The position numbers and the translations under genes were made by a program. Positions 19,348 through 35,389 of a stretch of 64,000 nt of DNA are shown here, in pieces. Source of the DNA: Gemmatimonadota bacterium. Its GTDB lineage: Bacteria > Gemmatimonadota > Gemmatimonadetes > Gemmatimonadales > Gemmatimonadaceae. Numbering within the stretch: the first letter of the stretch is position 1; every line of letters starts with the position of its first letter. The stretch spans positions 1-64,000 of the forward strand of contig JACPFW010000005.1 in assembly GCA_016182795.1 (NCBI GenBank). The letters are read 5' to 3'. Below the pieces are notes generated by a model that worked only from the letters and a program-made list of their open reading frames with translations, made no database searches and was not told the DNA's origin.

Positions 19348-20004
19348 GTGACTGTCAGTCACCCCGCACACGATCCGCGCTGGCGTCGCCTTCCAGGTGA
19401 GCGTCCGCATCAACTCATCGACGCGGCACTCGATGTCTTTTCCGAGTGCGGCTACAACGCCGCCAAGCTCGAGGAGATCGCGCGGCGCGCCGGGGTCTCC
19501 AAGGGGACGATCTACCTCTACTTCGCCAGCAAGGAAGAGCTCTTCAAGGCCGTCGTCAACGATGCAATCGCGGCCCATCTTCGCCTCGCGCATCAGGGGC
19601 CCGCTCCGCGATCGGCGAGCGAGGGACTCGAACGCGCCCTGCGCGCCAACTGGGCGTTCTCCACGAATCCGAAATTCGACGGCTGGTTTCGAATCCTTAT
19701 CGCCGAGTTGCCCAAGCATCCGGATCTGCTGGCGTTCTACAACCGCGAGGTCATCGACCGCGCCTGGGAATTCGTCGAGCGGATCATCGCCGGTGGCGTC
19801 GCGTCGGGTGAGTTCCGCGCCGTCGAACCGCGCCTCGCCGTCGGACTCACCAACGCGCTGGTGGTCATGCACCGCCACTGGGTCGGCCCGAACTCGATTC
19901 GTCCCGAATACCGCGCGCGCGACCGCCAGCAGATCATCGACGCGATCGTCGACTTTGCCCTCGCCGGACTTCGCAATCCGGCGTACACCCCCCCGAACTC
20001 ATGA
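19348..20004 (+). CDS. TetR/AcrR family transcriptional regulator of the efflux operon
   Basis: A 218-residue repressor. The N-terminal helix-turn-helix is clear (residues about 20-65: IDAALDVFSECGYNAAKLEEIARRAGVSKGTIYLYFASKEELF). The C-terminal ligand-binding region is helical and unassigned. It starts with GTG and ends in an ATGA overlap with the tolC gene. The first position in an emrAB-tolC operon and the palindromic operator upstream indicate that it controls the operon and itself, released by a drug-like ligand. Confidence 0.92.
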   Translation: MTVSHPAHDPRWRRLPGERPHQLIDAALDVFSECGYNAAKLEEIARRAGVSKGTIYLYFASKEELFKAVVNDAIAAHLRLAHQGPAPRSASEGLERALRANWAFSTNPKFDGWFRILIAELPKHPDLLAFYNREVIDRAWEFVERIIAGGVASGEFRAVEPRLAVGLTNALVVMHRHWVGPNSIRPEYRARDRQQIIDAIVDFALAGLRNPAYTPPNS

Positions 20005-21338
20005 CGCCGCTCCGCTCTCTTTTCTCAGCTTCGTTGCTGCTGCTGCCGGCGGCGCTCGCCGCGCAGTCGCCCGTGACGCTCACCCTCGGCGGCGCGGCGC
20101 GCCTCGCCGCCGCGCAGAGCGGTGCGTCGTCGGTGGCGCGTACGCGCATCGACCAAGCCGACGCGCGGGTGCGGCAGGCGCGCTCGCTGCTCTACCCGAC
20201 GCTCACGGCGAGCGCCGGGGAGAACGAACGCAACCAGAACACGGCGACGTTCGGCTTCGCCTTCCGCGATCCGTCGGGCAAGCCGGTGTTCGACCCGAAC
20301 GGCCAGATCCTTCCCGCCGTGAAGGTGTTCGACTTCCGCGGCCGCGCGCAGGCGAATCTGGTGGACCTATCCGTCGCCGCCAAGCTGGGCACGGTGCGCC
20401 AACAGGTGCGCGTGGCGCAGGCTGAGGCGTCGGGCGCCGGCGACCAGTCGGCGGCGCTCGCCGCCGCGTCGTACGTGCGCGCCGTGCGCGCCGATGCCGT
20501 GCTCGCCGCGCGCACCGCCGATTCCACACTCGCCGCCGAACTCCTCACAATTGCCCGCGAACAGGTGCAGGCCGGCGTTGGCGTGGCACTCGACGTGACC
20601 CGCGCGCGCAGCCAGCTCTCGCAGGCGCACGCGCAGCTGATTGCCGCCCGCGCCGACCGCGACCGCGCGCGACTCGAACTGCGCCGCGTCACGGCCATCG
20701 ACCCGACCGCCCCGCTCGTGCTCAGCGACTCGCTGATGGCGCTGCCGGTGGATGACGCGCTCCCCACGGCCGACGCGGGCACCCGTCTTGCCCTCACCCG
20801 CCGCGCCGATATTCGCGCCGTCGCCGAACAGCAGCGTGCCGCTGAGCGCGCCGTGTCGGCCACGCGACTCGAGCGTCTGCCCACACTCGCCCTCTTTGGC
20901 GATCAGGGCGCGATCGGCGGCTCCACCGCGCACCTGCTGAATACGTACACGTGGGGCCTGCAGGTCTCGGTGCCGATCTTCGACGGTTTCCGCCGCGACG
21001 GACGCGTGCAGGAGCAGCGCGCGCAGGTGCGCGAAGTCGATGCCCGCCGCCGCGATCTCGAAGCACAGGCCGCCATCGACGTGCGCGCCGCGCTGCTTGA
21101 CCTCGCCACCGCGCGCGAGCTGATGCAGGCCGCCGAAGAACGGCTGTCGCTCGCGCAGCAGGAGCTCGACCAGGCGCGCGCGCGGTTCACCGCCGGCGTC
21201 AGCGGCAACGCCGACGTCATCGCCGCCTCGTTGGGCATCAACGCCGCCCGCACCCAGGTCATCGACGCGCGCGCGGCCTATCAGTCGGCCCGAGTCACGC
21301 TCGCGCGCGCCGAAGGCACCGTCACCGAACTGCCCTAG
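20001..21338 (+). CDS. TolC-family outer-membrane efflux protein
   Basis: A 445-residue outer-membrane channel protein with signal peptide (LFSASLLLLPAALAAQ). Two repeated TolC halves are visible as long coiled-coil stretches rich in Ala, Gln, Arg and Asp. The C-terminal part (GLQVSVPIFDGFRRDGRVQEQRAQVREVDARR) matches the family. It would form the exit duct for the EmrA-EmrB pump encoded just downstream. A second TolC-family gene is at 32269-33582. Confidence 0.92.
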   Translation: MTPLRSLFSASLLLLPAALAAQSPVTLTLGGAARLAAAQSGASSVARTRIDQADARVRQARSLLYPTLTASAGENERNQNTATFGFAFRDPSGKPVFDPNGQILPAVKVFDFRGRAQANLVDLSVAAKLGTVRQQVRVAQAEASGAGDQSAALAAASYVRAVRADAVLAARTADSTLAAELLTIAREQVQAGVGVALDVTRARSQLSQAHAQLIAARADRDRARLELRRVTAIDPTAPLVLSDSLMALPVDDALPTADAGTRLALTRRADIRAVAEQQRAAERAVSATRLERLPTLALFGDQGAIGGSTAHLLNTYTWGLQVSVPIFDGFRRDGRVQEQRAQVREVDARRRDLEAQAAIDVRAALLDLATARELMQAAEERLSLAQQELDQARARFTAGVSGNADVIAASLGINAARTQVIDARAAYQSARVTLARAEGTVTELP

Positions 21339-21372
21339 TGCATCGCCCCCCGACATCTCAATCACTCCTCGT

Positions 21373-22407
21373 ATGAAGAAGCCCCTGATTCCCATTGTTG
21401 CCGTCGCCGCGGTTGGCGTCCTCTTCTGGGTCACCAAGACGGTCCTCTACGGCCGCGCGCACGAAACCACCGACAACGCGCAGGTAGATGCCGCGATTGT
21501 CCCGGTGCTCGCTAAGGTCGGCGGCTTCGTGTCGCAGCTCGCGGTCGCCGAGAACCAGCCCGTCAAAGAGGGCGACCCGCTCGTGCGCATCGACTCGGCG
21601 GAGTACGCCGTGCGCGTCGCGCAGGCGCAGGCCGAGTATGACGCGGCGCTGGCGGTGGCCGGCGCGCGCGGCATTAGCGGCCAAGCCGATGCGCAGCTAC
21701 GCGGCGCCGAGAGCCAGCGACAGGTGATCGCGTCGCAGATCGACGCCGCGCGGGCGCAGGTGGCCAAGGCGACGGCCGATCTCGCGCGCGCCAAGGAGCT
21801 GGTCGACCGGCAGATCGTCAGCCGGCAGCAGCTCGATGCCGCGCAAAGCGCGTTCGATCAGGCGACGGCGAGCCTGCAGGCCGCCGAGCGGCAGGCGCGC
21901 TCGGCTGACGCGCAGTTCAGCGGCGCGCAGGCCGGTGCGCGGCTCGCGCAGGCGCGGCTCGCTGCCGCCCGCGCCGCGCTCGACAACGCCAAGCTGCAAC
22001 TCGCCTATACGGCCGTGAGCGCGCCGATCACGGGCACGGTCTCGCGCAAACAGGTTGAAGTCGGCCAGTTGGTGAGCGCCGGCCAGCCGCTGCTCACGCT
22101 GGTGGACACCGCGCACACGTGGGTCACGGCCAACTTCAAGGAGACGCAGCTCGCCGACATGCGCGTCGGTCAGGCGGTGGAACTCGAGGTCGATTCGTAC
22201 GAGGGGTGCAGCGCCAAGGGCAAAGTGGAGAGCATGGGCGCCGCCACCGGAGCGCGCTTTGCGCTGCTCCCGCCCGACAACGCGACCGGCAACTTCACCA
22301 AGGTGGTGCAGCGCATCCCCGTGCGCATTGCCGTCACCACCGGGTGCGGCGCCGACCGTCCCCTGCGTCCGGGCATGAGCGTGGTCGCGCACGTGAACGT
22401 GAAGTAG
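21373..22407 (+). CDS. emrA: HlyD/EmrA-type membrane fusion protein
   Basis: A 344-residue periplasmic adaptor. One N-terminal membrane helix (LIPIVAVAAVGVLFWVTKTVLY) is followed by HETTDNAQVDA, the EmrA signature. A split lipoyl domain (VSQLAVAENQPVKEGDPLVRID and APITGTVSRKQVEVGQLV) flanks a coiled coil (about 80-200) rich in Ala and Gln. The C-terminal beta-barrel has the WVTANFKETQLADMRVGQ motif. It links the EmrB pump to TolC. The genes are close (34 bases from tolC), so one operon is likely. Confidence 0.93.
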   Translation: MKKPLIPIVAVAAVGVLFWVTKTVLYGRAHETTDNAQVDAAIVPVLAKVGGFVSQLAVAENQPVKEGDPLVRIDSAEYAVRVAQAQAEYDAALAVAGARGISGQADAQLRGAESQRQVIASQIDAARAQVAKATADLARAKELVDRQIVSRQQLDAAQSAFDQATASLQAAERQARSADAQFSGAQAGARLAQARLAAARAALDNAKLQLAYTAVSAPITGTVSRKQVEVGQLVSAGQPLLTLVDTAHTWVTANFKETQLADMRVGQAVELEVDSYEGCSAKGKVESMGAATGARFALLPPDNATGNFTKVVQRIPVRIAVTTGCGADRPLRPGMSVVAHVNVK

Positions 22408-22426
22408 TCGCCCGACGCCGCGCCCT

Positions 22427-22454
22427 GCCATCCGCCATCCGCCATCCGCCATCC
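22427..22454. repeat. Tandem 7-bp repeat GCCATCC x4
   Basis: Four exact copies of GCCATCC in the 62-base spacer between emrA and emrB, ending 15 bases before the emrB start. No stem or ribosome binding site can be seen here. Copy number could vary by slippage and change the spacing between the coupled genes. Confidence 0.85.
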
Positions 22455-22469
22455 GCGATCTGCCGCAAC

Positions 22470-24035
22470 GTGACTCCGCCCCCAGCCGATAAGTACCGCC
22501 ACAAGTACCTCATCGCCGCCGCCGTCACCATGGCGGCGGTGCTCGAGCTCATCGACACGTCGATCGTGAACGTCGCGATTCCCCACATGATGGGAAATCT
22601 CGGCGCCACGCTCGACGAGATCTCGTGGGTCAGCGTCAGCTACATCGTGGCCAACGTGATCGTCATCCCGATGTCGAGCTGGCTGTCCGCCTACTTCGGG
22701 CGCAAGCGCTACCTCACGACGTCCATTCTGATCTTCGTCAGCGCGTCGTTCTTCTGCGGCGCGTCCACGACGCTCTGGCAGCTGGTCTTCTGGCGCGTCG
22801 TGCAGGGTGTCGGCGGCGGCGCACTGCTCTCAACCGCGCAGGCCACCCTGTGGGAGGCGTTCCCGCCGCACGAGGTGGCTATCGGGCAGGCGATGTTCGG
22901 CGTTGGCGTGATGGTCGGCCCCACGCTGGGCCCCACGGTGGGCGGCTACATCGTGGACAACTGGAACTGGCCCTGGATCTTCTACATCAACGTGCCGCTC
23001 GGCCTCGCGGCGGCGGTGATGGTCTGGTCGTACGTCACCGACTCCGAACATCAGGAGCGCGCCGAGAAGGTCGACTGGCTGGGCATTGTCCTGCTCACCG
23101 TGGCGGTCGGTTCGCTGCAGTGGCTGCTCGAACGCGGCGAGCGGTACGACTGGTTCGATTCGCGCTTCGTCACCACACTCGCGATCGTCTCGGCGGTCTC
23201 GTTTGCCTGGCTGATCTGGCATGAGCTGCACACCGACGAACCAATCATCGACTTCCACCTGCTGCGCAACCGCCAGCTCTCAACCGGCGTGATCATGGGC
23301 GCCGTGCTGGGCTTCGCGCTCTACGGGTCGATCTTCGTGCTCCCCGTCTTCCTGCAGGCGCTGCACGGCTTCACCGCCAACCAGACCGGGCTCGTGATTC
23401 TCCCCGGCGCGATGGCGTCGGCGTTCATGACGGCGACGATGGGGCGCCGCATGCGCATGGCCAGCGATGCGCGGCCCGTGCTGCTACTTGGCGCCTCGCT
23501 GTTCATGGTGTGCATGTGGAAGCTCGCCGGTCTCACGTACGACAGCGGACAGGGCGATCTGTTCTGGCCGCTGATCATTCGCGGCCTCGCGCTGGGCATG
23601 ATGTTCATTCCATTGAACAGCATCGCCCTCGCCGAACTCGAGCCGCGCGACCTCGCCTCCGGCACGGGGTTGTTCAACCTGACGCGCCAGCTGGGCGGCT
23701 CCATTGGCATCGCGGTGATGGCGACGTCGCTCAACCACATCACCAAGGCCAAGAAGGCGCTGCTCACCGATCACCTCGTGGCCACGGCCCCCGATGTGCA
23801 GGCGCGCGTCGACGGACTGACGCACGGACTGATGGCCAAAGGCGCCAGTCTGTCGGTGGCGCACCAGCAGGCGCTGGCCGTGATGGACCGATCAGTGGGC
23901 GTGCAGGCCAGCGTCCTCGCCTTCTCGCGTATTTACCTCATCAGCGGCTTCGTGCTGCTCAGCGCCATGCCGTTGATGCTGCTATGGCACAACGGCCGTC
24001 CGCGCGGCGTGGTCGTCAAGGACCTCGGTCACTAG
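22470..24035 (+). CDS. emrB: MFS drug transporter, DHA2 family (EmrB/QacA type, 14 TM)
   Basis: A 521-residue proton-driven multidrug exporter. Motif A-like sequence lies after TM2 (SAYFGRKRYL), motif C is seen in GVMVGPTLGPTVGGYIVDNWNWPWIFYINVPLG, and ELIDTSIVNVAIPHM in TM1 is diagnostic of DHA2 proteins. The GTG start gives the usual short cytoplasmic N-terminus (TPPPADKYRHKYL). A longer in-frame ORF runs through emrA and is a shadow. With TolC and EmrA it should form a tripartite pump controlled by the TetR protein. Confidence 0.94.
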   Translation: MTPPPADKYRHKYLIAAAVTMAAVLELIDTSIVNVAIPHMMGNLGATLDEISWVSVSYIVANVIVIPMSSWLSAYFGRKRYLTTSILIFVSASFFCGASTTLWQLVFWRVVQGVGGGALLSTAQATLWEAFPPHEVAIGQAMFGVGVMVGPTLGPTVGGYIVDNWNWPWIFYINVPLGLAAAVMVWSYVTDSEHQERAEKVDWLGIVLLTVAVGSLQWLLERGERYDWFDSRFVTTLAIVSAVSFAWLIWHELHTDEPIIDFHLLRNRQLSTGVIMGAVLGFALYGSIFVLPVFLQALHGFTANQTGLVILPGAMASAFMTATMGRRMRMASDARPVLLLGASLFMVCMWKLAGLTYDSGQGDLFWPLIIRGLALGMMFIPLNSIALAELEPRDLASGTGLFNLTRQLGGSIGIAVMATSLNHITKAKKALLTDHLVATAPDVQARVDGLTHGLMAKGASLSVAHQQALAVMDRSVGVQASVLAFSRIYLISGFVLLSAMPLMLLWHNGRPRGVVVKDLGH

Positions 24036-24124
24036 GCCAGCATCCGCCCCCCCTCGCGCGTTCCATCGCCGGCTGGCATTCTAGACCAGCTCGTGTTGAC
24101 CAGCACCATATGGGGGGAGCACCC

Positions 24125-24757
24125 GTGCAGCACAACCGAACACTCATGATCGTCGCGCTGGCCGCGCTGCCGACGCTCGCCGGCGCGCAGCGCGTGAATG
24201 TCCGCGGCGAGCGCGCTGGCGACATCGGCGGATGCGGCTTTCAGATGCCGCGCTCGTCGGACCTCGAGGACCACAGCCCGGTGGGGATCGTCCTCGACAA
24301 GAAGAAGCTCGCGCTGTCTGACAGCCAGGTGTCGGCCCTCAAGGACATCGCCAAGGCGCTCAAGGAGAAGAACGGCGCGTATCACCGTGGCTGGGATTCC
24401 GTGCGCGTGACCATGCGGTCGGCGGGCGGCGGCGCGTTTGGCGGCGGTGGCGGTGGACGCGGCGCATCGGAGGTGGGCGGCACGTCAGCCGTGGATCGCG
24501 AGGTGCTCGCGACGGCGCGCACCAATATGATGGGCCTGCGGCGCGCCGTCGGCGAGAACGACGAGTGGGCCCGCCTGGAAACGCTCAAGGTGCTCACCCC
24601 GGAGCAGCGGGCCAAGACCGAGGAGTACTGGAAAGACGACGCCGAGGACTTTGGACAGACCGTTCCGGGCGCGGGTGGCAGGCCGGGCGGTGGAGGAAGA
24701 CCGGGTGCCGGTGGACGGCCGGGTAGCGGCCCTCCGGGCGACCGCGGGCGTGGCTAA
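24125..24757 (+). CDS. Periplasmic LTxxQ-motif (Spy/CpxP-like) protein with Gly-rich tail
   Basis: A 210-residue protein starting with GTG behind a strong GGGGGGAG ribosome binding site. The signal peptide (TLMIVALAALPTLAGAQ) exports it. Two LTxxQ-type motifs lie in helical segments, LALSDSQ at about 62 and VLTPEQR at about 156, with a Gly-rich insert between (about 100-120) and a Gly/Arg/Pro tail. The motifs place it near the Spy/CpxP/ZraP group of periplasmic helical chaperones or sensors. It precedes the ECF sigma gene by 33 bases and may belong to the same unit. Function in this organism is inference. Confidence 0.7.
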   Translation: MQHNRTLMIVALAALPTLAGAQRVNVRGERAGDIGGCGFQMPRSSDLEDHSPVGIVLDKKKLALSDSQVSALKDIAKALKEKNGAYHRGWDSVRVTMRSAGGGAFGGGGGGRGASEVGGTSAVDREVLATARTNMMGLRRAVGENDEWARLETLKVLTPEQRAKTEEYWKDDAEDFGQTVPGAGGRPGGGGRPGAGGRPGSGPPGDRGRG

Positions 24758-24790
24758 CAGCCGCGCCGACTCGCGTGTTTGAGGAATAGG

Positions 24791-25369
24791 ATGCGAGAGC
24801 CCACCCGCGAGCCGGCCTCCGACGCAGACGAATCGGCGTTGGTCGCACGCGCACGGCGCGGCGACTCGGCGGCGTTTGATGCGCTCGTCCGTCGCCATCT
24901 CCCGTGTGCTCTCGCCGCCGCCGAACGATTGTTGGGGGACCGCTCCGATGCGGAAGACCTCGTGCAGGATGCCTTCCTGCGCGCGCTCGACCGCCTCCCG
25001 CTGCTCGATCCCGGTCGACCGTTTGGTCCGTGGTTCTTCACGCTCTTGCGCAATCTGGGCATCAATCAGTTGCGCGCCCGACGAGTACGGCACACCGAGC
25101 CAGAGCTGCCCGATGCCGTGTCGTCGGACGCCCTGCCGGATGAAGAGATGGTGCGAACGGAGGTGCGGGAGCGGTTCGATGCCGCATTGGCGGCGCTGAC
25201 GCCGCGGCAGCGGGAGATCGTGATGCTGTTCGAAGTGGATGGATGGAAGGGCGCCGAAATTGCGACGAAGCTCGGCCTGACGCCCGAAAACGTGCGGTGG
25301 CACCTGCACCAGGCCAAGAAGAGCCTGCGTGTCTCGCTGGCACCGTTGAGGGACGAGGGAACCGAATGA
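24791..25369 (+). CDS. ECF-type RNA polymerase sigma factor (module A)
   Basis: A 192-residue group IV sigma factor. Region 2 is seen around DAEDLVQDAFLRALDRL, which binds core polymerase and the -10 element. Region 4 (ALTPRQREIVMLFEVDGWKGAEIATKLGLTPENVRWHLHQAKKSLR) binds the -35 element. The ATG at 24791 follows GAGGAATAGG, a good ribosome binding site. A TTG four codons upstream is less likely. The stop overlaps the next start (ATGA), the usual layout for a sigma and its membrane-bound antagonist. Confidence 0.93.
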   Translation: MREPTREPASDADESALVARARRGDSAAFDALVRRHLPCALAAAERLLGDRSDAEDLVQDAFLRALDRLPLLDPGRPFGPWFFTLLRNLGINQLRARRVRHTEPELPDAVSSDALPDEEMVRTEVRERFDAALAALTPRQREIVMLFEVDGWKGAEIATKLGLTPENVRWHLHQAKKSLRVSLAPLRDEGTE

Positions 25370-25755
25370 CCGACGATCTGTTCAATCCAGCGGACGCGCG
25401 GCTTGCCGCCGATCCCGAGCGCGACCCGATGCTCGGCGAGTTGTTGCGTGCCGAGCGGCTGCGCGAGCGCATCGCGCTGGCCGTCCGTCGTCGCGGGATG
25501 CGACGCGTCGAGACGCCGTGGTACGGCTGGGTGGCGCGCTACGGCCGTGCCGCCGTGCCCATCGGCATCGCGGCGGCGCTTATTGCCGCCGTCATTCTCA
25601 ACCGCTCGGTGCGCTCCGACGCCGACTATGCGGCGCAGGCGGCCGCCACGGATCTGCGCGGCGCAGTGGCCGGAGGATCTGGCGCCGCGGTGACGGACGC
25701 CATGCTCGGCCCGGATTCCACGGAGTTCCTCATTGCCATGGCGGTCGAACGATGA
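25366..25755 (+). CDS. Single-pass membrane protein, probable anti-sigma (module A)
   Basis: A 129-residue protein with about 60 charged cytoplasmic residues, one membrane helix (AVPIGIAAALIAAVIL, about residues 62-77), and about 50 periplasmic residues ending AMLGPDSTEFLIAMAVER. There is no zinc-binding HxxxCxxC anti-sigma motif. Topology, size and the ATGA overlaps with the sigma gene before it and the LTxxQ gene after it resemble CnrY of CnrYXH. The periplasmic tail resembles that of the module B protein (SVLGPSNGGPTIAI). The role as anti-sigma is inferred. Confidence 0.65.
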   Translation: MTDDLFNPADARLAADPERDPMLGELLRAERLRERIALAVRRRGMRRVETPWYGWVARYGRAAVPIGIAAALIAAVILNRSVRSDADYAAQAAATDLRGAVAGGSGAAVTDAMLGPDSTEFLIAMAVER

Positions 25756-26252
25756 GCGACCAGACGTCCTTTAACGCCCCTGACGACTCGCCGCTCGCGC
25801 CGCCGGCTCGCTCGACTCGACTGCTCGCGGTGGGTGTGCTCGTGATCGTGGCGCTCGCCGGCGTACTCGGCGGTGTCGCGCTGGAGCGCACGGTGCTGCG
25901 CCCCCACGGCTGGGCACAGCGTACGAACTCCGGGCGCGGCGATCGCCGCGCCGCGCCGCGCCGACCGAGCGCCATGCTCCCCGCCGACCTCAAGCTCTCG
26001 GAAGAGCAGGCGGTGCGCATCGACACGCTGATCGAGCAGCAGATGCGCGGGTTCCGCGAGATCCGCAAGTCGACGCAGCCGGCCATCGACTCGCTGATGG
26101 CGCAGACCAAGCGCTCCATGGACAGCATCCTCACGCCGACCCAGCGCACGCAGCTCGATTCGATTCGCGCGCGGCGCGAGGCCGAGTTCAAGAAGCGCTA
26201 CCCCGGCGGCACGCCGAACCGCGGGTCTGGTGACTGGCCGCGCCGGCCGTGA
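25752..26252 (+). CDS. Membrane-anchored LTxxQ protein, CnrX/Spy-like sensor (module A)
   Basis: A 166-residue protein. One N-terminal membrane anchor (LLAVGVLVIVALAGVLGGVAL, about 24-44) is followed by an Arg-rich stretch and a helical hairpin with two LTxxQ-type motifs, LKLSEEQ (about 80) and ILTPTQR (about 127). This is the architecture of CnrX-like periplasmic sensors and Spy-like chaperones. The domain has no His or Cys, so classical metal sensing as in CnrX is unlikely. It is coupled to the anti-sigma gene and precedes the TonB-dependent receptor by 39 bases. Confidence 0.75.
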   Translation: MSDQTSFNAPDDSPLAPPARSTRLLAVGVLVIVALAGVLGGVALERTVLRPHGWAQRTNSGRGDRRAAPRRPSAMLPADLKLSEEQAVRIDTLIEQQMRGFREIRKSTQPAIDSLMAQTKRSMDSILTPTQRTQLDSIRARREAEFKKRYPGGTPNRGSGDWPRRP

Positions 26253-26291
26253 GCTGACTCGCGCCGACCGCCCCTCGACGCGTTTGCCCTG

Positions 26292-29200
26292 ATGCGCCTT
26301 CGCACTGCCGCGTTGTGCCTCCTCCTGCTGATTGCGCCGCGCCTCGCGCCGGCGCAGGTGGGGAGCACCACCGACATCATCACCGGAACGGTGCGCAACG
26401 CCGACGATCGCCCCGTCGCCAACGCGCGCATCGAGGTGATGTCGGTGGAGACTGGCATCACGCGCATGCGCACCACCAACGAGAAGGGGCAGTACACCCT
26501 GCTCTTCCCCGACGGCGGCGGCCAGTACTCCGTGACCGCGCGCGCCATCGGCCTGCTCCCCGCAACCGTCAGCCTCATTCGCCTGGCCGACGAAGACCGG
26601 CTCGTCGTCGACTTTCGCCTTTCCCCCACGGTTCTTAGCACCGTGACGGTGAGCGCGCGACAGACACCGCGCTCCAACGAGAATCAGGCGACACCAGGCA
26701 GCACCGAGCGCGCGCTCACCGGCGAGCAGCTGCTGCGCCTGCCAATCGACGCCTCCGACCCCAATGCGATCGCCGCCCTGTCGCCGGGCGTCGTCGGCAT
26801 GCTCGGCACCGACTCCACGGCGGCCGGCTTTTCCGTGGCTGGCCAGCGCGCCGACCAGAACCTGGTGACGCTCGACGGCCTGACCTTTGGCGGCGCCATT
26901 CCCGCCGAGGCCGTGCGCAACACGCGGGTAATCACGAGCACCTTTGACATCGCGCGCGGCCAGTTCACCGGCGGCCAGGTGGCCTCGACGACGCGCGGCG
27001 GCACCAATGACATCTCCGGGAGTGTCGCGTACGCGCTGCGCGATCCCAGTCTCGAGTTTGCCACCGGCGATGAGGCGACCTCGTTCAGCGGCGCGTATAC
27101 CCAGCATCAACTGAGCGGCGGGGTCGGCGGCGCGCTGGTGAAGAACAAGACGTTCTGGTTTGCCAGCATGCAGGTGCGCCGGCGGCTCGACGCGCTGCAG
27201 TCGCTGCTCGGCGCGGGCACACAGACGCTGGAAGCGTTGAACGTGCAGCCCGACTCGGCGGCGCGTTTCCTGTCGCTGCTCACGCGGTACGGTCTTCCGC
27301 TCCACAACTCGCTCGTGCCCGACGACCGCACCAACGACAACCTCACCGGCATCGTGCGCCTCGACCAGCAGCTCTCCGAGGGGCACTCGCTGTCGGTGCG
27401 CGGCAACGTGTCAGGGACGCTGCTCGACGGCTTTCGCAGTTCTGCGCAGAGCGTGCCGACGCACGCCGGCGAACAAAAGCAGGGGGGCGCCGGCGGATTG
27501 ATTTCGATGTCATCCGTCGTTGGGCAGTTCCTGAACGAGTTCAAGGGGTCGTACAACGTCGATTCGCGCGGCGCCAACCCGTACCTGCGCCTCCCCGAGG
27601 GGCGCGTGCTGGTGGGCAGCACCCTGTCGAACGGCCAGGTCGCCATCACTGGCCTCGACTTCGGCGGCAATGGTGCGCTTCCCAATGACAGCCGCACCAG
27701 CCAGACGGAACTGACCGACGAACTGTCGTGGCTCTCCGGCGGCGGCAAGCATCGCTGGAAGCTGGGCGGACTGATCAATCGCTCCGGCTTTCGGACGACG
27801 GCCGGCTCCAACCGGTCGGGGAACTTCCAGTTTCTCTCGCTCGCCGATCTCGACGCCAATCGTCCCAGTCAGTTCAGCCGGTCGTTCGCCCCCGCCCAGC
27901 GCACGGGCGGCGCGGTCACGGCCGCCGTGTACTTCGGCGATATCTGGCGTCCCAATCGCACGTTCCAGCTGACGTACGGCGCGCGCGGCGAAGGCAGCGC
28001 GATTGACGGACAACCCCGCTTCAATCCGGACGTCGCCGCCAAGTTTGGCCTGCGCACCGATCGCATTCCCACCGACATGCGCATCAGTCCGCGCATCGGC
28101 TTCACGCTCACGCTCGGCCTGCCGCCCGACACGGGGCGGCGCGGCAATCGCAACGCCGCGGCTGCGGGAGCCGGGGCGGAAAGCGGTCGCCGAGGCGGCG
28201 GTGGTGCGCCGGGCGGCGCAGTGGGAGGCGGCGCGCCGGGCGGTGGACGACCCGGTGGCGGCGGTCTGGCCGGTTTGTTGGGCAGCGTGGCGCGCAATGC
28301 GCCCGCGCCCCAGATCCCTCAGCCGTGGATCGTGCGCGGCGGCCTCGGTGACTTCCGCGGCCGCGCCCCGACGCAGCTCTTCTCGTCGGCGCTCGACGCT
28401 ACCGGACTGCCCGGCGCCGAAACGCAGCTCGTGTGTGTCGGCGGCGCGGTGCCGACCCCAGATTGGGCGTCATACCTGCATGACTTCGGCTCCATCCCCA
28501 CCGTCTGCGCCGACGGCTCCGGGCCGTCGGTGCCGCTGAGCCGCACGCGGCCCAACGTCACCGCGTTCGATCCGGACTTCCAGACGCCACGCTCCGTTCG
28601 CGGATCGCTCGGCGTGAGCAAGCGGTTCCGGCAGCGGTACAATGCCAGTGTCGATGCGTCGTATTCACTTGGCACCAGCCTGTACGGCGTGTCCGACCTG
28701 AATCTCGTTGAGACGCCGCAATTCACGCTCGCCCGCGAGGGCAACCGCCCCGTCTTCGTGCCGGCGTCGACCATCGTGCCGCACTCGGGCGTTACCACGC
28801 TGGCCGCGTCGCGGGTGCATCCCGAGTACGGCTACGTCTTCAAGGTGGCGTCGCCGCTCGCGTCGCACACGACGCAGGTGACCGCGTCGCTCAATGGCAA
28901 CTCGTTCCGTCAGCTGGTGTGGAACGTGTCATACACGTTCACGCGCTCCACCGACCAGTCGAGCTTCTCCGGCGGCAGCGCGGCCGGCGGCTTCTCGTCA
29001 CCGACGACCAACGGCGATCCAAACATCATTCGCGTGACAACCAGCGATCTCGAGCGCCGGCATGGCCTCACCGGGTCGCTCACCTGGCTCGCGCGTCCGT
29101 GGCTCGACATCACCAGCATCCTGCGCCTGCAGTCCGGATCGCCGTACACGCCGCGCGTCGGCGGCGATATCAACGGCGACGGCTCGCGCAATGATCGCGC

Positions 29201-30107
29201 GTACATCTTTGATCCGGCCACCTCCACCGACACCGCGCTCGCGGCCGGCATGTCGCGTCTGCTGGCCACCGCGCCCGGCGCCGCGCGCGACTGCCTGCGC
29301 GCCCAACTCGGACGCATTGCCGACCGCAACAGCTGCCGCACCGCGTGGGCCACCTCGCTCGACCTCCAGCTCAACCTGCGTCCGCAGCTCGGCCCCACCA
29401 TTGGCCGCCGACTGCAGTTGCAGGTGGGGCTTGTCAATCCGTTGGCCGGTCTCGATCAGTTGGCGCACGGCACCGACCACCTGCGCGGATGGGGGCAGCC
29501 GACGTTCGCCGACAACACGCTGCTGTACGTGCGCGGCTTCGATCCGTCGGCGAAGGCGTTCCGGTACGTCGTCAACGAACGCTTCGGCAGCAATGCCCTC
29601 GCGCGGTCCGCGCTGCGCAATCCGTTCCAGATCTCGCTCACCGCGCGCCTGCAGGTCGGTGTCGACCGCCAGCGGCAGCTGCTCGAGCGGATGCTCCGCG
29701 CCGGCGCAACCAATCGCCCGGGGCTCGATGTGCGCGCCATGGTCCGGCGTCTTGCGCCCAACCCGATCGTGCCGCTCCGCGACCTCAAGACCGAGCTGAA
29801 GCTCACCGCCGCCCAGTTGAAGTCGCTCGCAGCGATCGGCGATTCGCTCGACAGCAAGACTGCCGCGCTCACCAAGCGACTCGAAGCACAGGTGGCGGCC
29901 GAGGCGAAATCGGGCGGGGATCTGCAGACGCTGTTCCCCAAGCTGCAGCCGCTGCTGCAGGAAGCGCGCAACAATTATGTGGACGCCACCAAGTCCATTC
30001 AGTCGGTGCTGACCGCCGAGCAGTGGGCGGAAGTTCCGGAATCGGTGAAGAATCCAACGCTGCGTCCCGCGGGTGCCGGCGCCGGCCAAGGTCGTCGCAC
30101 CCCGTAA
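26292..30107 (+). CDS. TonB-dependent outer-membrane receptor with C-terminal LTxxQ domain
   Basis: A 1271-residue protein. Signal peptide is followed by a carboxypeptidase-regulatory-like domain (about 25-110), a plug (FSVAGQRADQNLVTLDGLTFGG) and a long beta-barrel region of the Oar-like type. A Gly/Arg-rich insert of about 50 residues lies near 616-665. The barrel normally ends the protein. Here about 110 more residues follow (about 1165-1271) with two LTxxQ-type motifs, LKLTAAQ (about 1171) and VLTAEQW (about 1240), predicted helical. That tail resembles the separate LTxxQ proteins encoded just upstream. The substrate is unknown; related receptors import or export siderophores, peptides or glycans. 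Confidence 0.87.
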   Translation: MRLRTAALCLLLLIAPRLAPAQVGSTTDIITGTVRNADDRPVANARIEVMSVETGITRMRTTNEKGQYTLLFPDGGGQYSVTARAIGLLPATVSLIRLADEDRLVVDFRLSPTVLSTVTVSARQTPRSNENQATPGSTERALTGEQLLRLPIDASDPNAIAALSPGVVGMLGTDSTAAGFSVAGQRADQNLVTLDGLTFGGAIPAEAVRNTRVITSTFDIARGQFTGGQVASTTRGGTNDISGSVAYALRDPSLEFATGDEATSFSGAYTQHQLSGGVGGALVKNKTFWFASMQVRRRLDALQSLLGAGTQTLEALNVQPDSAARFLSLLTRYGLPLHNSLVPDDRTNDNLTGIVRLDQQLSEGHSLSVRGNVSGTLLDGFRSSAQSVPTHAGEQKQGGAGGLISMSSVVGQFLNEFKGSYNVDSRGANPYLRLPEGRVLVGSTLSNGQVAITGLDFGGNGALPNDSRTSQTELTDELSWLSGGGKHRWKLGGLINRSGFRTTAGSNRSGNFQFLSLADLDANRPSQFSRSFAPAQRTGGAVTAAVYFGDIWRPNRTFQLTYGARGEGSAIDGQPRFNPDVAAKFGLRTDRIPTDMRISPRIGFTLTLGLPPDTGRRGNRNAAAAGAGAESGRRGGGGAPGGAVGGGAPGGGRPGGGGLAGLLGSVARNAPAPQIPQPWIVRGGLGDFRGRAPTQLFSSALDATGLPGAETQLVCVGGAVPTPDWASYLHDFGSIPTVCADGSGPSVPLSRTRPNVTAFDPDFQTPRSVRGSLGVSKRFRQRYNASVDASYSLGTSLYGVSDLNLVETPQFTLAREGNRPVFVPASTIVPHSGVTTLAASRVHPEYGYVFKVASPLASHTTQVTASLNGNSFRQLVWNVSYTFTRSTDQSSFSGGSAAGGFSSPTTNGDPNIIRVTTSDLERRHGLTGSLTWLARPWLDITSILRLQSGSPYTPRVGGDINGDGSRNDRAYIFDPATSTDTALAAGMSRLLATAPGAARDCLRAQLGRIADRNSCRTAWATSLDLQLNLRPQLGPTIGRRLQLQVGLVNPLAGLDQLAHGTDHLRGWGQPTFADNTLLYVRGFDPSAKAFRYVVNERFGSNALARSALRNPFQISLTARLQVGVDRQRQLLERMLRAGATNRPGLDVRAMVRRLAPNPIVPLRDLKTELKLTAAQLKSLAAIGDSLDSKTAALTKRLEAQVAAEAKSGGDLQTLFPKLQPLLQEARNNYVDATKSIQSVLTAEQWAEVPESVKNPTLRPAGAGAGQGRRTP

Positions 30108-30231
30108 GGCCGCAGGCGTCGTCCGGGACCCGCCGCGCGCGCCGAAGCGACCGGCCCGTATCGACCTTTCGGCGGCCAACACGGTAATTTGCGCTTTCTC
30201 GCCCCTCCTCCCTCGTCTCTCGCCTTCATCC

Positions 30232-30813
30232 ATGCCACTCGACCGCACCGCCGCCTGGAACCTCGTCTGCGAATGGACGCAGAGTGAGTCGCTGCGCAAG
30301 CACATGCTCGCCGTCGAGACGGCGATGCGCGCCTATGCCCGCAAGATGGGCGCCGACGAAGAGGCGTGGGGCCTCGCCGGCCTGCTGCACGACTTCGACT
30401 ACGAACGTTTCCCCAACGATGCGCACTCCGCCACCGACGAGCATCCGTCGCACGGGGTGCGGCACTTGCGCGGTCTCGGCGTTTCGGAGGAGATCTGCGA
30501 CGCCATTCTCGGGCACGCCGATTACACGCACACGCCGCGCGAGAGCCCGATGGCCAAGGCGTTGTTCGCGGTGGACGAACTCTGCGGCCTGATCACGGCC
30601 GCCACCTACGTGCGCCCGAGCAAGAGCATTCTTGATCTTGAGGCATCGTCGGTGCGGAAGAAGATGAAGGACAAGGGATTCGCCCGCGGCGTCTCGCGCG
30701 AAGACATCACGCACGGCGCCGAGCAGCTCGGCGTCGACCTCGAGACCCACATCGCCTTCGTCGTTGATGCCCTCAAGGCGAATGCCGCCCCGCTCGGACT
30801 GGCGGGCGTGTAG
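30232..30813 (+). CDS. HD-domain protein (putative metal-dependent phosphohydrolase)
   Basis: A 193-residue protein. The HD signature is complete: H in LRKHMLAVE, HD in GLLHDFDYE, H in HADYTHT, and a later D. The pattern DEHPSHGVRHLRGLGVSEEICDAILGHADYTHTPR is typical of small HD proteins of unknown substrate that often act on nucleotides. The ATG follows a pyrimidine-rich leader with no Shine-Dalgarno. It separates ECF modules A and B and has no evident functional link to them. Confidence 0.85.
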   Translation: MPLDRTAAWNLVCEWTQSESLRKHMLAVETAMRAYARKMGADEEAWGLAGLLHDFDYERFPNDAHSATDEHPSHGVRHLRGLGVSEEICDAILGHADYTHTPRESPMAKALFAVDELCGLITAATYVRPSKSILDLEASSVRKKMKDKGFARGVSREDITHGAEQLGVDLETHIAFVVDALKANAAPLGLAGV

Positions 30814-30830
30814 GAGTGGCGCCGATGCCT

Positions 30831-30859
30831 CAACGTTTCCCCGTGATGGTACGTCTCAT
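30831..30859 (+). promoter_or_regulatory. Probable ECF-type promoter of the module B sigma gene
   Basis: CAACGTTT (-35-like, 30831-30838) and CGTCTCAT (-10-like, 30852-30859), with 17 bases between CAAC and CGTC. AAC and CGTC are the core elements of many ECF-dependent promoters. It lies 26 bases before the sigma start, so the sigma factor probably activates its own operon. Confidence 0.65.
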
Positions 30860-30884
30860 AGGGTGCACCCCGTGACGAGACGCA

Positions 30885-31496
30885 ATGACCGCAATTGCCC
30901 TTGGTCCGGCGCCCGTTGCGCTCCCCGGCCGCATCCGCCGACGCGTGACGGCGCCTGACCGCCCGGACGACGAGAAGGCGCTCGTGCTCTCCGCCCAGCG
31001 CGGCGAGCTCGAAGCCTTTTCGGAACTGGTCCGCCGCCATCAGCGGCGGGCCTACGCCGTGGCGCGCGCCATTGTCACCACGCACGAGGATGCCGAGGAT
31101 GCCGTGCAGGACGCGTTCCTGCACGCCTACCGGGCGTTGCATCGGTTCCTGCCCGACCAGGCGTTTGGCGCCTGGCTGCACCGCATCGTCGCCAACGCGT
31201 CGCTCGACATCACCCGACGCCGCAAGGTGCGTGATGCCGACGACCTGCCGGAAACCATCGCGTCCCCCTTCCGCGATCCGGCCGAAAGCGATGAGCTGCG
31301 CACGCGCTTGCGCGTCGCGCTCGCCCAACTCCCCGAGCGCCAGCGCTCGGTGATCGTGCTGCACGATGTCGAAGGGTTCAAACATTCCGAGATCGGCACA
31401 CTGCTCGGCATACCCGAGGGGACGGCGCGCTCCGACCTGCACTACGCGCGGTCGGCGCTGCGACGCCTCCTCGATCAGCTGCGGAGTTCATCATGA
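30885..31496 (+). CDS. ECF-type RNA polymerase sigma factor (module B)
   Basis: A 203-residue group IV sigma factor. Region 2 is seen around HEDAEDAVQDAFLHAYRALHRF with AFGAWLHRIVANASLDITRRR. Region 4 is seen in ALAQLPERQRSVIVLHDVEGFKHSEIGTLLGIPEGTARSDLHYARSALRRLL. The first 30 residues are a basic extension. It overlaps the next gene by an ATGA and is preceded by an ECF-like promoter. Its order (sigma, one-helix protein, LTxxQ protein) matches module A. Confidence 0.93.
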   Translation: MTAIALGPAPVALPGRIRRRVTAPDRPDDEKALVLSAQRGELEAFSELVRRHQRRAYAVARAIVTTHEDAEDAVQDAFLHAYRALHRFLPDQAFGAWLHRIVANASLDITRRRKVRDADDLPETIASPFRDPAESDELRTRLRVALAQLPERQRSVIVLHDVEGFKHSEIGTLLGIPEGTARSDLHYARSALRRLLDQLRSSS

Positions 31497-31867
31497 CCAA
31501 CGACCACACCCCTCTGCGCCTTGTGCCCGACGACGCCGATCTGACCCGCGCCCTGCGTCAGCTGTACGCGGCACCCGACGCCCCGTTCTACTGGAGCGGG
31601 CTCGAGCGCCGCATCATGGACCGGATCACCAACGGCGATGCGCTCGACGCCTGGTGGACGGTTCCAACGCCCTGGGTGCGCATCGGCCTCATCGCCGCCG
31701 GCTTCGCACTCATTGTGGCGGGCTCGCTTGTCCTGCGCTCCAGCGCCGAACAGCGCCAGATGGCCTATGAATCGGTGCTCGGGCCCTCCAACGGCGGCCC
31801 GACGATCGCTATCCGCGACGCCCAGACCGAACGGCAGGCCACTCTCAACTACATCAACGGGCGGTAG
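31493..31867 (+). CDS. Single-pass membrane protein, probable anti-sigma (module B)
   Basis: A 124-residue protein. About 65 cytoplasmic residues (PDDADLTRALRQLYAAPDAPFYWSGLERRIMDRI) are followed by one membrane helix (VRIGLIAAGFALIVAGSLVL, about 62-81) and a short periplasmic tail with SVLGPSNGGP. No zinc anti-sigma motif is present. The position after the sigma gene with overlapping codons, and the resemblance in layout and tail to 25366-25755, support a CnrY-like antagonist. This remains inference. Confidence 0.65.
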   Translation: MTNDHTPLRLVPDDADLTRALRQLYAAPDAPFYWSGLERRIMDRITNGDALDAWWTVPTPWVRIGLIAAGFALIVAGSLVLRSSAEQRQMAYESVLGPSNGGPTIAIRDAQTERQATLNYINGR

Positions 31868-31899
31868 CCCCACGGCTCCGCCCCCCTGGGGCGTATCCC

Positions 31900-32265
31900 A
31901 TGACGCGAACCAAAGGACTTGCACTGGCGTTCTACCTCGGTGCGGCCATCGCCGGCGTCGCTATCGGCGTCGCCGTCGATCGCCTGCTGCATGCGGCACC
32001 CGCCACACGGGTGACAGCCATCGAGATGCGCGACCGCTTCGCCAAAGAGCTCAAACTCAGCGACGCCCAGCGTGCCACCGTGGACAGCATCCTCGACGCT
32101 CGCTTCCGCGCCGAGTCGGTGGTCGTCTCGCCCATCCGGCCGCAGCTCGACTCGGTCCGGGCCGAGGCTCGGGGGCGAATTTCGGCGCTCCTCACGCCCG
32201 AACAGCTTCGCGTGTATGAACAGATGCAGCGGGACCAGAAGTCCCGCGCGCAGGAGAAGAAATAG
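31900..32265 (+). CDS. Membrane-anchored LTxxQ protein, CnrX/Spy-like sensor (module B)
   Basis: A 121-residue protein with an N-terminal membrane anchor (GLALAFYLGAAIAGVAIGVAV, about 6-26) and a helical hairpin carrying LKLSDAQ (51-57) and LLTPEQL (98-104 region). It aligns well with the module A protein across both motifs (LKLS..Q...D, P..DS, LTP.Q). No His or Cys lies in the motif region, so metal ligands of the CnrX kind are missing. It is followed after 3 bases by the tolC-like gene, so sensor and exporter genes form one operon. Confidence 0.78.
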   Translation: MTRTKGLALAFYLGAAIAGVAIGVAVDRLLHAAPATRVTAIEMRDRFAKELKLSDAQRATVDSILDARFRAESVVVSPIRPQLDSVRAEARGRISALLTPEQLRVYEQMQRDQKSRAQEKK

Positions 32266-32268
32266 GAC

Positions 32269-33582
32269 ATGACTCGGTTTTCCTTGCTCTGCCTCGCGGT
32301 GCCGTTCGCCCTCGTCGCCCAGCAGCCGGCGTCGCCGGCGGGCAGTGGGGCGCGCCCCATCGCGCTCGACGAAGCCGTACGCGAGGCTCAGCGCAATGCG
32401 CCGGCCGCTGTCTCGGCGCGCAACACGCTACGCACCACGACCGCGGCGGTGCGTACGGCGAAGGCACAGTACCTGCCGTCGCTTTCGATCAACGGGTCGG
32501 GATCACGGCAGGGCGGCGAGACCTTCTTCCAGGGCAAGCTCGTTCCATATAGCGGCGTGCCGTGGTCGTTCTCGCGCGGCCTGTCCACCAACCTCGAACT
32601 GTTTGATGGTGGCCGCCGCTGGTACAACCTCAAGGCGGCGCAGGCCAACGTCGATGCCGCCGACGCCGGCGAGACCTCGCAGCGCTTCAACCTCGCCCTG
32701 CAGGTGAAGCAGCAGTACTTCGCCGTGCTCGCCGCCCGCGAAAGCGAGTCCGCCGCCAACCGCCAGCTCGAGCAGGCGCAGGAACAGCTTAAGTCGTCCA
32801 CCGCCAAGGTGAAGGCCGGCATCGCCACCAAGAGCGACTCGCTGCGCTCCGCCATTCAGGTGGGCAATGCCCGCCTCGCCCAGCTCACGGCGCAGAACAA
32901 CCTGCGCGTCGCCAATGCCGCGCTCACGCGCCTCGTCGGCGCGTCCGATGTCGTCACCGCGACGCCGGCCGACACCGCCGAGATGGGACGCATCGTGCTC
33001 GACAGCGCACAGCTCACGGCGCTCGCCATGGATGGACCCACGGTGCGCCAGGCTGAGGCCAATCTGTACGCCGCCCAGTCTGCCAAGAAGGCGGCCAAGA
33101 CGCCGTACATGCCCACCATCACGTCATCGTACAGTCTCAGCGGCAACAACACCTCCGAGACATTCGACTGGGGGAGCGGGCGCATTCCCAAGCAGAACAG
33201 CCTCCGCTTCTCGCTCAACTTCCCGCTCTTCAATAACCTGAGCCGCGAAGAGAACGTCACGCGCACCACGGTGGCCGAGGAAAACGCGGTCGCCTCGCTG
33301 CGCGACGCCAAGCTTGCCCAGCAGCAGTCGCTCGTGCAGTACCTTGGCGCGTTCCGCACCGCCGAGGAGCGCGTGACCATTCAGTTGGCCACCGTCGCCG
33401 CCGCCGAGGAAGACCTGCGCGTGCAGCAGCAGCGCTACGCGCTCGGCGCGTCGGTGCTGCTCGATCTCCTCACCTCGCAGACCACGCTCGACCAGGCCCG
33501 CGCCGCGCTGATCCAGGCGCGCTACGACGCCCGCATCGCCAAGGCGCAGGTTGAGGCCCTCGTCGGCCGCGACCTCAAGTGA
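32269..33582 (+). CDS. TolC-family outer-membrane efflux protein (module B)
   Basis: A 437-residue outer-membrane channel with signal peptide (FSLLCLAVPFALVAQ). Paired TolC repeats are visible, e.g. IALDEAVREAQRNAPAAVSARNTLR at the N-terminus and NLSREENVTRTTVAEENAVASLRDAKLAQQ in the second half, with a C-terminal YALGASVLLDLLTSQTTLDQARAALIQARYD. It should be the exit duct for the MacA/MacB-like proteins encoded next. Its stop overlaps the GTG at 33579. Confidence 0.92.
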   Translation: MTRFSLLCLAVPFALVAQQPASPAGSGARPIALDEAVREAQRNAPAAVSARNTLRTTTAAVRTAKAQYLPSLSINGSGSRQGGETFFQGKLVPYSGVPWSFSRGLSTNLELFDGGRRWYNLKAAQANVDAADAGETSQRFNLALQVKQQYFAVLAARESESAANRQLEQAQEQLKSSTAKVKAGIATKSDSLRSAIQVGNARLAQLTAQNNLRVANAALTRLVGASDVVTATPADTAEMGRIVLDSAQLTALAMDGPTVRQAEANLYAAQSAKKAAKTPYMPTITSSYSLSGNNTSETFDWGSGRIPKQNSLRFSLNFPLFNNLSREENVTRTTVAEENAVASLRDAKLAQQQSLVQYLGAFRTAEERVTIQLATVAAAEEDLRVQQQRYALGASVLLDLLTSQTTLDQARAALIQARYDARIAKAQVEALVGRDLK

Positions 33583-33617
33583 CCAGTCCCCGACCGACGC
33601 CCCATTCGGAGCATCTC

Positions 33618-35387: not shown

Positions 35388-35389
35388 GG

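Follow-up and report, generated by a model that had tools for sequence, protein, structure and literature searches.

An ECF sigma factor module with LTxxQ proteins and an LTXXQ-tailed outer-membrane barrel in Gemmatimonadota

Introduction

Signalling from the outer membrane to a sigma factor is known mainly through receptors with an STN domain, and LTxxQ proteins are known as chaperones or metal sensors. The metal site of CnrX uses histidine ligands. In the available part of PMC4598750, CnrX acts through CnrY; the CnrX, CnrY and CnrH sequences compared here are those of pMOL28 from Cupriavidus metallidurans (nickel and cobalt resistance). In cell-surface signalling, the periplasmic STN subdomain of PupR is structurally homologous to the signalling domain of PupB, as the accessible text of PMC7186176 reports. 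Approximately 79% of the extracytoplasmic function (ECF) sigma factors of Gemmatimonadetes are associated with class I anti-sigma domains (ASDI), according to the available excerpt of PMC7406223. The present analysis concerns module A, an ECF sigma factor locus of a Gemmatimonadota bacterium (assembly GCA_016182795.1, 3.13 megabases, contig JACPFW010000005.1; genome G000 and contig C40 in our numbering). The window is the whole stretch analysed, positions 1 to 64,000 of this contig, and all window features described below lie on its forward strand.

Module A is built around a trio of genes at 24791-26252 that encode an ECF sigma factor, a one-helix protein and a membrane-anchored LTxxQ protein. 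A gene for a secreted-looking LTxxQ protein precedes the trio, and a gene for an outer-membrane barrel with a C-terminal LTXXQ domain follows it. The best explanation, which we consider probable, is that module A is an ECF module that senses the envelope, regulates itself and also produces the barrel. This reading is carried by the genes and their domains, by a promoter-like element that is conserved, and by a trio that is widespread and repeatedly found with tailed barrels and secreted LTxxQ proteins. The LTXXQ tail of the barrel is the most interesting part of the locus. Literature searches found no such module described for Gemmatimonas or gemmatimonads together with a TonB-dependent receptor and a sigma factor or with CpxP, and the novelty of the module rests on these searches only. 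The one paper found to bring together LTXXQ, a TonB-dependent protein and a sigma factor is a Pseudomonas transcriptome.

Genes and domains of module A

The sigma factor gene (24791-25369) starts with an ATG at 24791 and ends with a stop codon at 25367-25369. Its 192-amino-acid (aa) product, sigma A, matches the Pfam families Sigma70_r2 (E 2e-16) and r4_2 (E 7e-16), and scores 110.6 bits against TIGR02937 (cut-off 42.9). In an ATGA, this stop codon overlaps the start of the following gene, whose ATG is at 25366, and the stop codon of that gene (25753-25755) overlaps in the same way with the ATG of the sensor gene at 25752. The original prediction of a sigma factor, a one-helix protein and an LTxxQ protein chained by ATGA overlaps is thus exact in its gene coordinates. 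Tight packing recurs among the relatives: of 79 dereplicated trios, 45 have a gap of -4 and 10 a gap of -8 between the sigma gene and the next gene. The trio sigma profile aligns to CnrH (hhalign E 8e-25), as ECF sigma factors in general would.

The putative anti-sigma factor (25366-25755) is placed by its overlap with the sigma gene and by a single transmembrane (TM) helix. The protein has an N-terminal region of ~55-60 aa, the TM helix from about residue 60, and ~45-50 aa beyond it. None of the 11 putative anti-sigma factors scanned among trio members matches a Pfam anti-sigma family. The profile of 25366-type proteins has no detectable kinship to CnrY (hhalign probability 0.5%, single-sequence target).

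The membrane-anchored LTxxQ sensor (25752-26252) scores 21.4 bits against LTXXQ (cut-off 24.3) and 18.2 bits against Metal_resist (cut-off 29.2), both below the cut-offs. Among 25 aligned sensors, LTXXQ is matched by 21 and Metal_resist by 9 at E 0.01. The AlphaFold model has a TM helix at residues 20-48, a low-confidence linker, a short helix at 72-80, and two confident helices at 84-126 and 129-149, which begin at LSxxQ and LTxxQ, respectively. The predicted local distance difference test score (pLDDT) is 82-95 by block for residues 81-150, and the predicted TM-score (pTM) of the whole model is 0.38. Compared with solved structures, the sensor profile is closest to Spy (3oeo, E 7e-6), with CpxP as a weak match (0.21). 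The LTxxQ homology supposed for the 25752 and 24125 proteins is supported by weak matches of both to LTXXQ, with scores under the cut-off, and for the sensor also by its relatives.

The sensor hairpin in the window contains neither His nor Cys, and the sole His of the protein, residue 52, lies in the linker. The earlier statement that the sensor domain is free of both residues thus agrees with the hairpin. No column of the 25-row sensor alignment reaches 20% His or Cys, and the sensor profile has no detectable kinship to CnrX (hhalign probability 0.8%, single-sequence target). A CnrX-type metal site was rejected for the module A sensor on the lack of His and Cys in the window hairpin and of a conserved His/Cys column; judged by sequence, such a site is unlikely, in keeping with the predicted signal other than a metal bound as in CnrX. 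In the wider family (77 hairpins), 32 have no His or Cys, 18 have one, and 27 have two or more, so metal binding is possible for some members.

The outer-membrane barrel (26292-30107, 1271 aa) starts 39 nucleotides (nt) behind the sensor gene and scores 133 bits against PF25183 and 61 bits against PF13620. Its Pfam matches at E up to 1 are CarboxypepD_reg, CarbopepD_reg_2, Big_1, a weak Plug, OMP_b-brl_4, and LTXXQ, with no STN domain among them. Such CarboxypepD_reg/OMP_b-brl_4 barrels are presumably of the type called Oar-like. The C-terminal LTXXQ domain (residues 1157-1259, 29760-30068; PF07813) reaches 24.8 bits within the whole protein and 32.1 bits as a domain alone, above the cut-off of 24.3, and LTXXQ is matched by all eight aligned barrel tails. 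Since the tail follows the last barrel segment, it is probably periplasmic. Its closest solved structures are a designed protein (E 0.00024), VirG-like 5ihf (0.0018), and Spy 3o39 (0.04).

The secreted-looking LTxxQ protein (24125-24757) is 203-210 aa long depending on its start, which is a GTG at 24125 or, as picked by the gene caller, an ATG at 24146. It has a Gly-rich tail and scores 24.0 bits against LTXXQ (PF07813), just below the cut-off of 24.3, which fits the soluble LTxxQ protein originally placed ahead of the trio. The gene is intact in two of seven genus members, the window and G090. It has lost one half in G128/L165 and G032/L164, is a remnant in G052, and is missing altogether from G254 and L166. 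We regard it as an accessory gene that is decaying in the genus, and it was dropped as a core part since only two of the seven members have it intact. Across the 81 dereplicated trios, a secreted-looking LTxxQ gene stands immediately upstream on the same strand in 10 and divergently in 2. With seven LTXXQ-like matches among some 3000 genes of the window's own genome, far fewer than one of these trios would be expected to have such a neighbour, by rough arithmetic. Before the secreted gene, at 24060-24130, a second stretch CTCGCGCGTT ... GGCATTNTAG is alike in several genus members and is perhaps a promoter of its own.

Promoter-like elements

A putative ECF-type autoregulatory promoter, CTAAC-N16-GTGTTTGA, lies at 24754-24782, just before the sigma start, and the stop codon of the secreted gene falls inside its -35 part. 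Both CTAAC and GTGTYTGA are kept in all seven aligned genus members, including two without the secreted gene, and the exact pattern TAACN15-18GTGTYTGA occurs only once in the window's own genome. At the level of sequence, an ECF-type promoter-like element stands before the sigma gene, as would be expected of an autoregulated ECF module.

A general motif, [CT]AAC-N14..18-CGTNT, was derived from part of the trio upstream regions. It is found upstream of 29 of 78 trio sigma genes, a count that is partly circular; shuffled sequences give a mean of 1.2 and a largest value of 4, the reverse strand gives 1, and the interior of the sigma genes gives 0 of 79. For these counts, near-identical sigmas (88 reduced to 79) and barrels were removed, as were upstream regions shorter than 150 nt (one trio; L069 and other contig-edge barrels).

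Because the motif was read off trio regions, its occurrence at tailed barrels away from a trio is an independent test. Among tailed barrels without an adjoining trio, 16 of 52 carry the motif; for other genes at these loci whose upstream gap is at least 60 nt, the figure is 13 of 489 (Fisher p 1.4e-10). The two L278 barrels among the 52, neither of which has the motif, were later shown to be linked, which leaves 16 of 50, and the rows are mutually related, so the p-values of these counts are too small. Barrels without the tail have the motif in 4 of 43 cases (p 0.012 against the 16 of 52), after removal of six rows whose upstream region was too short or which proved tailed; this control includes L327, whose N terminus resembles that of tailed barrels and which is cut by the contig end, so the value may be 3 of 42. 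Six of the seven linked barrels of the genus lack a motif in front of them, consistent with transcription reading through from the sigma promoter. No terminator-like site was found in a simple scan of the forward strand from 23900 to 32400.

Distribution of the sensor, the trio and the tail

The 25-row sensor alignment matches 233 of 249 Gemmatimonadota genomes and 107 of 112 genera (E 0.001). In family f10, which belongs to the other class of the phylum, six genomes match the sensor only weakly, with E from 6e-13 to 9e-6. Trios are seen in families f1, f2 and f4-f9, which are eight of the ten families sampled, and dereplication leaves 81 cases. The sensor is thus widespread in the phylum and the trio recurs in related genomes, which supports the original prediction. 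The trio also extends beyond Gemmatimonadota, as L286 (G320, Acidobacteriota) has a secreted-looking LTxxQ gene, a sigma gene, a one-TM gene and an LTxxQ sensor gene in a row.

At E 1e-4, the profile of the barrel tail finds matches in 137 of 248 genomes, representing 64 of 112 genera, and at E 0.001 in 118 of 151 genomes of the order. Since secreted LTxxQ proteins may account for weak matches, these genome counts are upper bounds for tailed barrels. Among the matches listed, the tail mostly ends frames longer than 1200 aa, and OMP_b-brl_4 matches of relatives are mostly frames of ~960-1190 aa, those with a tail being mostly longer than 1200 aa. In Acidobacteriota, the phylum of the Acidobacteriaceae record L222, the tail profile matches 4 of 199 genomes at E 1e-4 or better. 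Three of these weak matches are frames of 180, 211 and 256 aa, the fourth (749 aa) belongs to a secreted-looking LTxxQ gene with a trio next to it, and none of the four is shown in a barrel. Six single genomes of further phyla, to which the search beyond Acidobacteriota was limited, gave no tail match.

Linkage of the trio and the tailed barrel

Eight members of the genus were covered by both the sensor and the tail search. Six of them (G000, G032, G052, G090, G128 and G254) have both the trio-A sensor (E 7e-46 or better) and the barrel-A tail (E 8e-43 or better), and the other two (G094 and G146) have neither, an absence that is uncertain at 91-93% assembly completeness. A further genome of the genus (L166/G275) contains both A-type parts, and the comparison was made without members G476-G478.

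A tailed barrel is the direct neighbour in 9 of the 81 trios and stands one gene further in two more (L140 and L344). Counted from the barrels, 12 of 82 examined tailed barrels are beside or one gene from a trio, a share inflated by the genus and g16 loci found via the sensor, with some unlinked loci cut by contig ends. The linked cases comprise four genera, three lineages and three arrangements. In g16 (L069 and L088), the barrel is ahead of the trio, and in g15 (L140) the two are divergent, with a secreted-looking LTxxQ gene. In g64 (L344, G264), two convergent tailed barrels 45 nt apart are followed by a secreted-looking LTxxQ gene, a sigma gene, a one-TM gene, and a sensor gene. On both the sigma tree and the barrel tree, three changes are required to explain the linked cases, forced by starred branches. 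The barrel tree was built quickly and has Shimodaira-Hasegawa-like approximate likelihood ratio test (SH-aLRT) values only, and L344 is off the sigma tree, its barrels standing on the barrel tree as L278, which is labelled unlinked there. A single ancient linkage with subsequent losses may underlie this distribution. The link to the barrel, which the original prediction had offered as inference, is better supported by the shared LTXXQ domain, the joint presence and absence in the genus, the separate lineages and the motifs; a functional contact stays at the level of suggestion.

Some further features of these loci were observed. At the L344 locus, a second sigma gene and then a further LTxxQ gene follow a few kilobases on. 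The window's own genome has a second tailed barrel on contig C3 (L003, 5603-9355), with no trio nearby, and behind it is a secreted-looking gene of 442-450 aa to which neither Pfam nor NCBIfam gives a match; behind many of the unlinked tailed barrels there is a gene of ~400-540 aa. L279 (G208:C90) has two tail-domain matches in one 1360-aa frame, perhaps a doubled LTXXQ tail. In L141, L142 and L291 (genus g3), a 285-aa sigma-like gene lies behind a tailed barrel, with four genes between them, and has no LTxxQ neighbour.

Neighbouring genes and module B

Directly upstream of module A, the 19348-24035 region contains genes for a TetR regulator, a TolC-like protein (by place and size), an EmrA-like adaptor, and an EmrB-like transporter. 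Downstream of the barrel is a second locus, module B. An ECF-type promoter-like element, CAACGTTT...CGTCT (30831-30856), precedes an ECF sigma gene with sigma profile matches (30885-31496), a one-TM putative anti-sigma gene (31493-31867), and a gene for a membrane-anchored LTxxQ sensor (31900-32265; LTXXQ 18.4 bits, under the cut-off). Behind module B are genes for a TolC-like protein, an HlyD-type adaptor and a MacB-like permease (32299-36613). As in module B, many trios are followed by genes that, by size in the relatives, correspond to TolC, an adaptor and a permease. Gene-size patterns like that of module B recur in relatives, several with a CAACG...CGTAT-like motif. Two trios precede resistance-nodulation-division (RND) pumps by profile (L077 and L084), and L120 does so by gene sizes only. 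The RND protein of L084 scores as multidrug, and that of L077 scores 604 bits as multidrug versus 509 bits as CusA/CzcA.

Proposed mechanism and alternative explanations

In the preferred reading of an autoregulated envelope-sensing module, the one-TM 25366 protein would bind sigma A at rest and hold it at the inner membrane. The 25752 protein, anchored next to the putative anti-sigma factor, would use its LTxxQ hairpin to read a protein-level state of the periplasm, a signal other than a CnrX-type metal, and would set and so control the 25366 protein. On the signal, sigma A would be freed and would transcribe from the 24754 element before its own gene. The predicted output is more sigma factor, anti-sigma factor and sensor and, 39 nt on and probably on the same transcript, the barrel. 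The C-terminal LTXXQ domain of the barrel would hang into the periplasm within reach of the sensor, and the two may touch.

Several points weigh against this reading, among them the limits given above for the motif counts, the linked share and the two incomplete genus assemblies. The 25366-25755 protein matches no Pfam family, and its model is helical but of low confidence (pTM 0.24). Foldseek found no match for the sensor model in the PDB. The secreted LTxxQ protein is being lost within the genus, the second tailed barrel of the same genome (L003) has no motif, and among 19 further unlinked tailed barrels only 4 have it, a lower share. No trio lies beside 70 of 82 tailed barrels and no tailed barrel beside 70 of 81 trios, so the two are not obligate partners.

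That so many tailed barrels are unlinked is also what would be seen if the trio and the tailed barrel were chance neighbours in the genus without a functional link. This is unlikely in view of linkage in four genera, three lineages and three arrangements, and of the motif on unlinked barrels. Less likely still is a true CnrYXH-type sensor for a nickel- or cobalt-like cation with the barrel as a receptor for a metal complex. The parts are of the same kinds, RND pump genes follow the trio in some relatives (by profile in L077 and L084, by gene sizes in L120), and 27 of the 77 wider-family hairpins have two or more His or Cys. The window hairpin has none, however, the 25-row alignment has no column at 20% His/Cys, no pump gene stands directly behind module A, and the two profiled RND proteins score best as multidrug types.

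The remaining alternatives are forms of the preferred reading. The LTxxQ parts may be chaperones or titratable brakes of a Cpx/Spy-like envelope-stress response, which unfolded envelope proteins draw off, freeing the sigma factor; the tail would then merely aid the folding of the barrel or space it. The nearness of the sensor to Spy and, weakly, to CpxP, the match of the tail to Spy, and the secreted-looking LTxxQ gene upstream of 10 of the 81 trios argue for this signal. Against it, five of the seven genus members keep the trio and barrel with the secreted protein missing or damaged, and what follows the module A trio is one specific barrel, not proteases or chaperones. This form is a serious possibility that falls short of being probable. 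A more specific form, somewhat more doubtful, is cell-surface signalling based on LTxxQ, with the barrel as receptor-transducer. Its tail would pair with the sensor hairpin, like STN in PupB and PupR, and its occupancy or assembly would be passed to the anti-sigma factor. The homologous domains on an outer-membrane protein and an inner-membrane regulator suggest it, and the PupR STN subdomain with the PupB signalling domain gives a precedent (accessible text of PMC7186176). Linkage in three lineages and a fourth genus, co-presence and co-absence in the genus, and ECF-type motifs at unlinked tailed barrels are consistent with it as well. On the other side, 70 of 82 tailed barrels have no trio next to them and 70 of 81 trios no tailed barrel, and neither STN nor FecR is among the domains listed for module A proteins.

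Direct LTxxQ-to-LTxxQ signalling between the membranes is accordingly a tentative proposal. Slightly more tentative is the view that Gemmatimonadota have a second kind of cell-surface signalling, in which the C-terminal LTxxQ domain of a barrel pairs with an inner-membrane LTxxQ hairpin and controls an ECF sigma factor, linked in module A and at a distance for unlinked barrels. If true, a tailed barrel beside an ECF sigma factor and an LTxxQ sensor would give the LTxxQ fold a testable third role. It would also offer a way into envelope regulation in a phylum that has been little studied, with the sensor in 233 of the 249 genomes sampled. The domain type shared by barrel and sensor hints at a new route from the outer membrane to gene control.

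Comparison with known systems

Oar-like barrels: The module A barrel has the same domain order as Oar-like barrels over the first ~1130 residues, and adds the C-terminal LTXXQ domain.

Spy and CpxP: The module A sensor shares the LTXXQ family and, by its model, probably the helical hairpin with these periplasmic chaperones of the Cpx response, which are its nearest solved relatives by profile. In contrast, the sensor is anchored in the membrane and its gene stands with that of an ECF sigma factor, and the tail is fused to an outer-membrane protein.

Anti-sigma factors of class I (ASDI) and class II (CnrY): The putative anti-sigma factor resembles both classes in its short N-terminal region before one TM helix. 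It differs in that no Pfam anti-sigma family is matched by any of the 11 module-type members scanned.

Cell-surface signalling (PupI/PupR/PupB, Fox and FecIRA): An ECF sigma factor, a one-TM regulator and an outer-membrane receptor-like barrel are common to these systems and module A, and the extra domain of the module A barrel likewise has a homologue in the inner-membrane regulator. However, LTXXQ is at the C terminus of the module A barrel, whereas known receptors have STN at the N terminus. The regulator of module A is split into an anti-sigma factor and a separate sensor, and no FecR domain is listed. Because the defining STN and FecR features fail, module A is not a member of the FecIRA type of cell-surface signalling.

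CnrYXH: Module A and CnrYXH share an ECF sigma factor, a short one-TM anti-sigma factor (putative in module A), a one-TM periplasmic sensor, and tightly packed genes, and efflux-type genes adjoin module B and some relatives. In contrast, the gene order of module A is sigma, anti-sigma, sensor, barrel, whereas that of CnrYXH is Y-X-H followed by CnrCBA. The sensor family of module A lacks conserved metal ligands, and hhalign gives no sequence kinship of its sensor or anti-sigma to CnrX or CnrY. The description of the locus as CnrYXH-like therefore holds for the layout of parts, in a trio that is widespread, and does not extend to gene order or metal ligands; no kinship with CnrX and CnrY was detected. 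The comparison with CnrYXH is right as a design and unproven as a line of descent.

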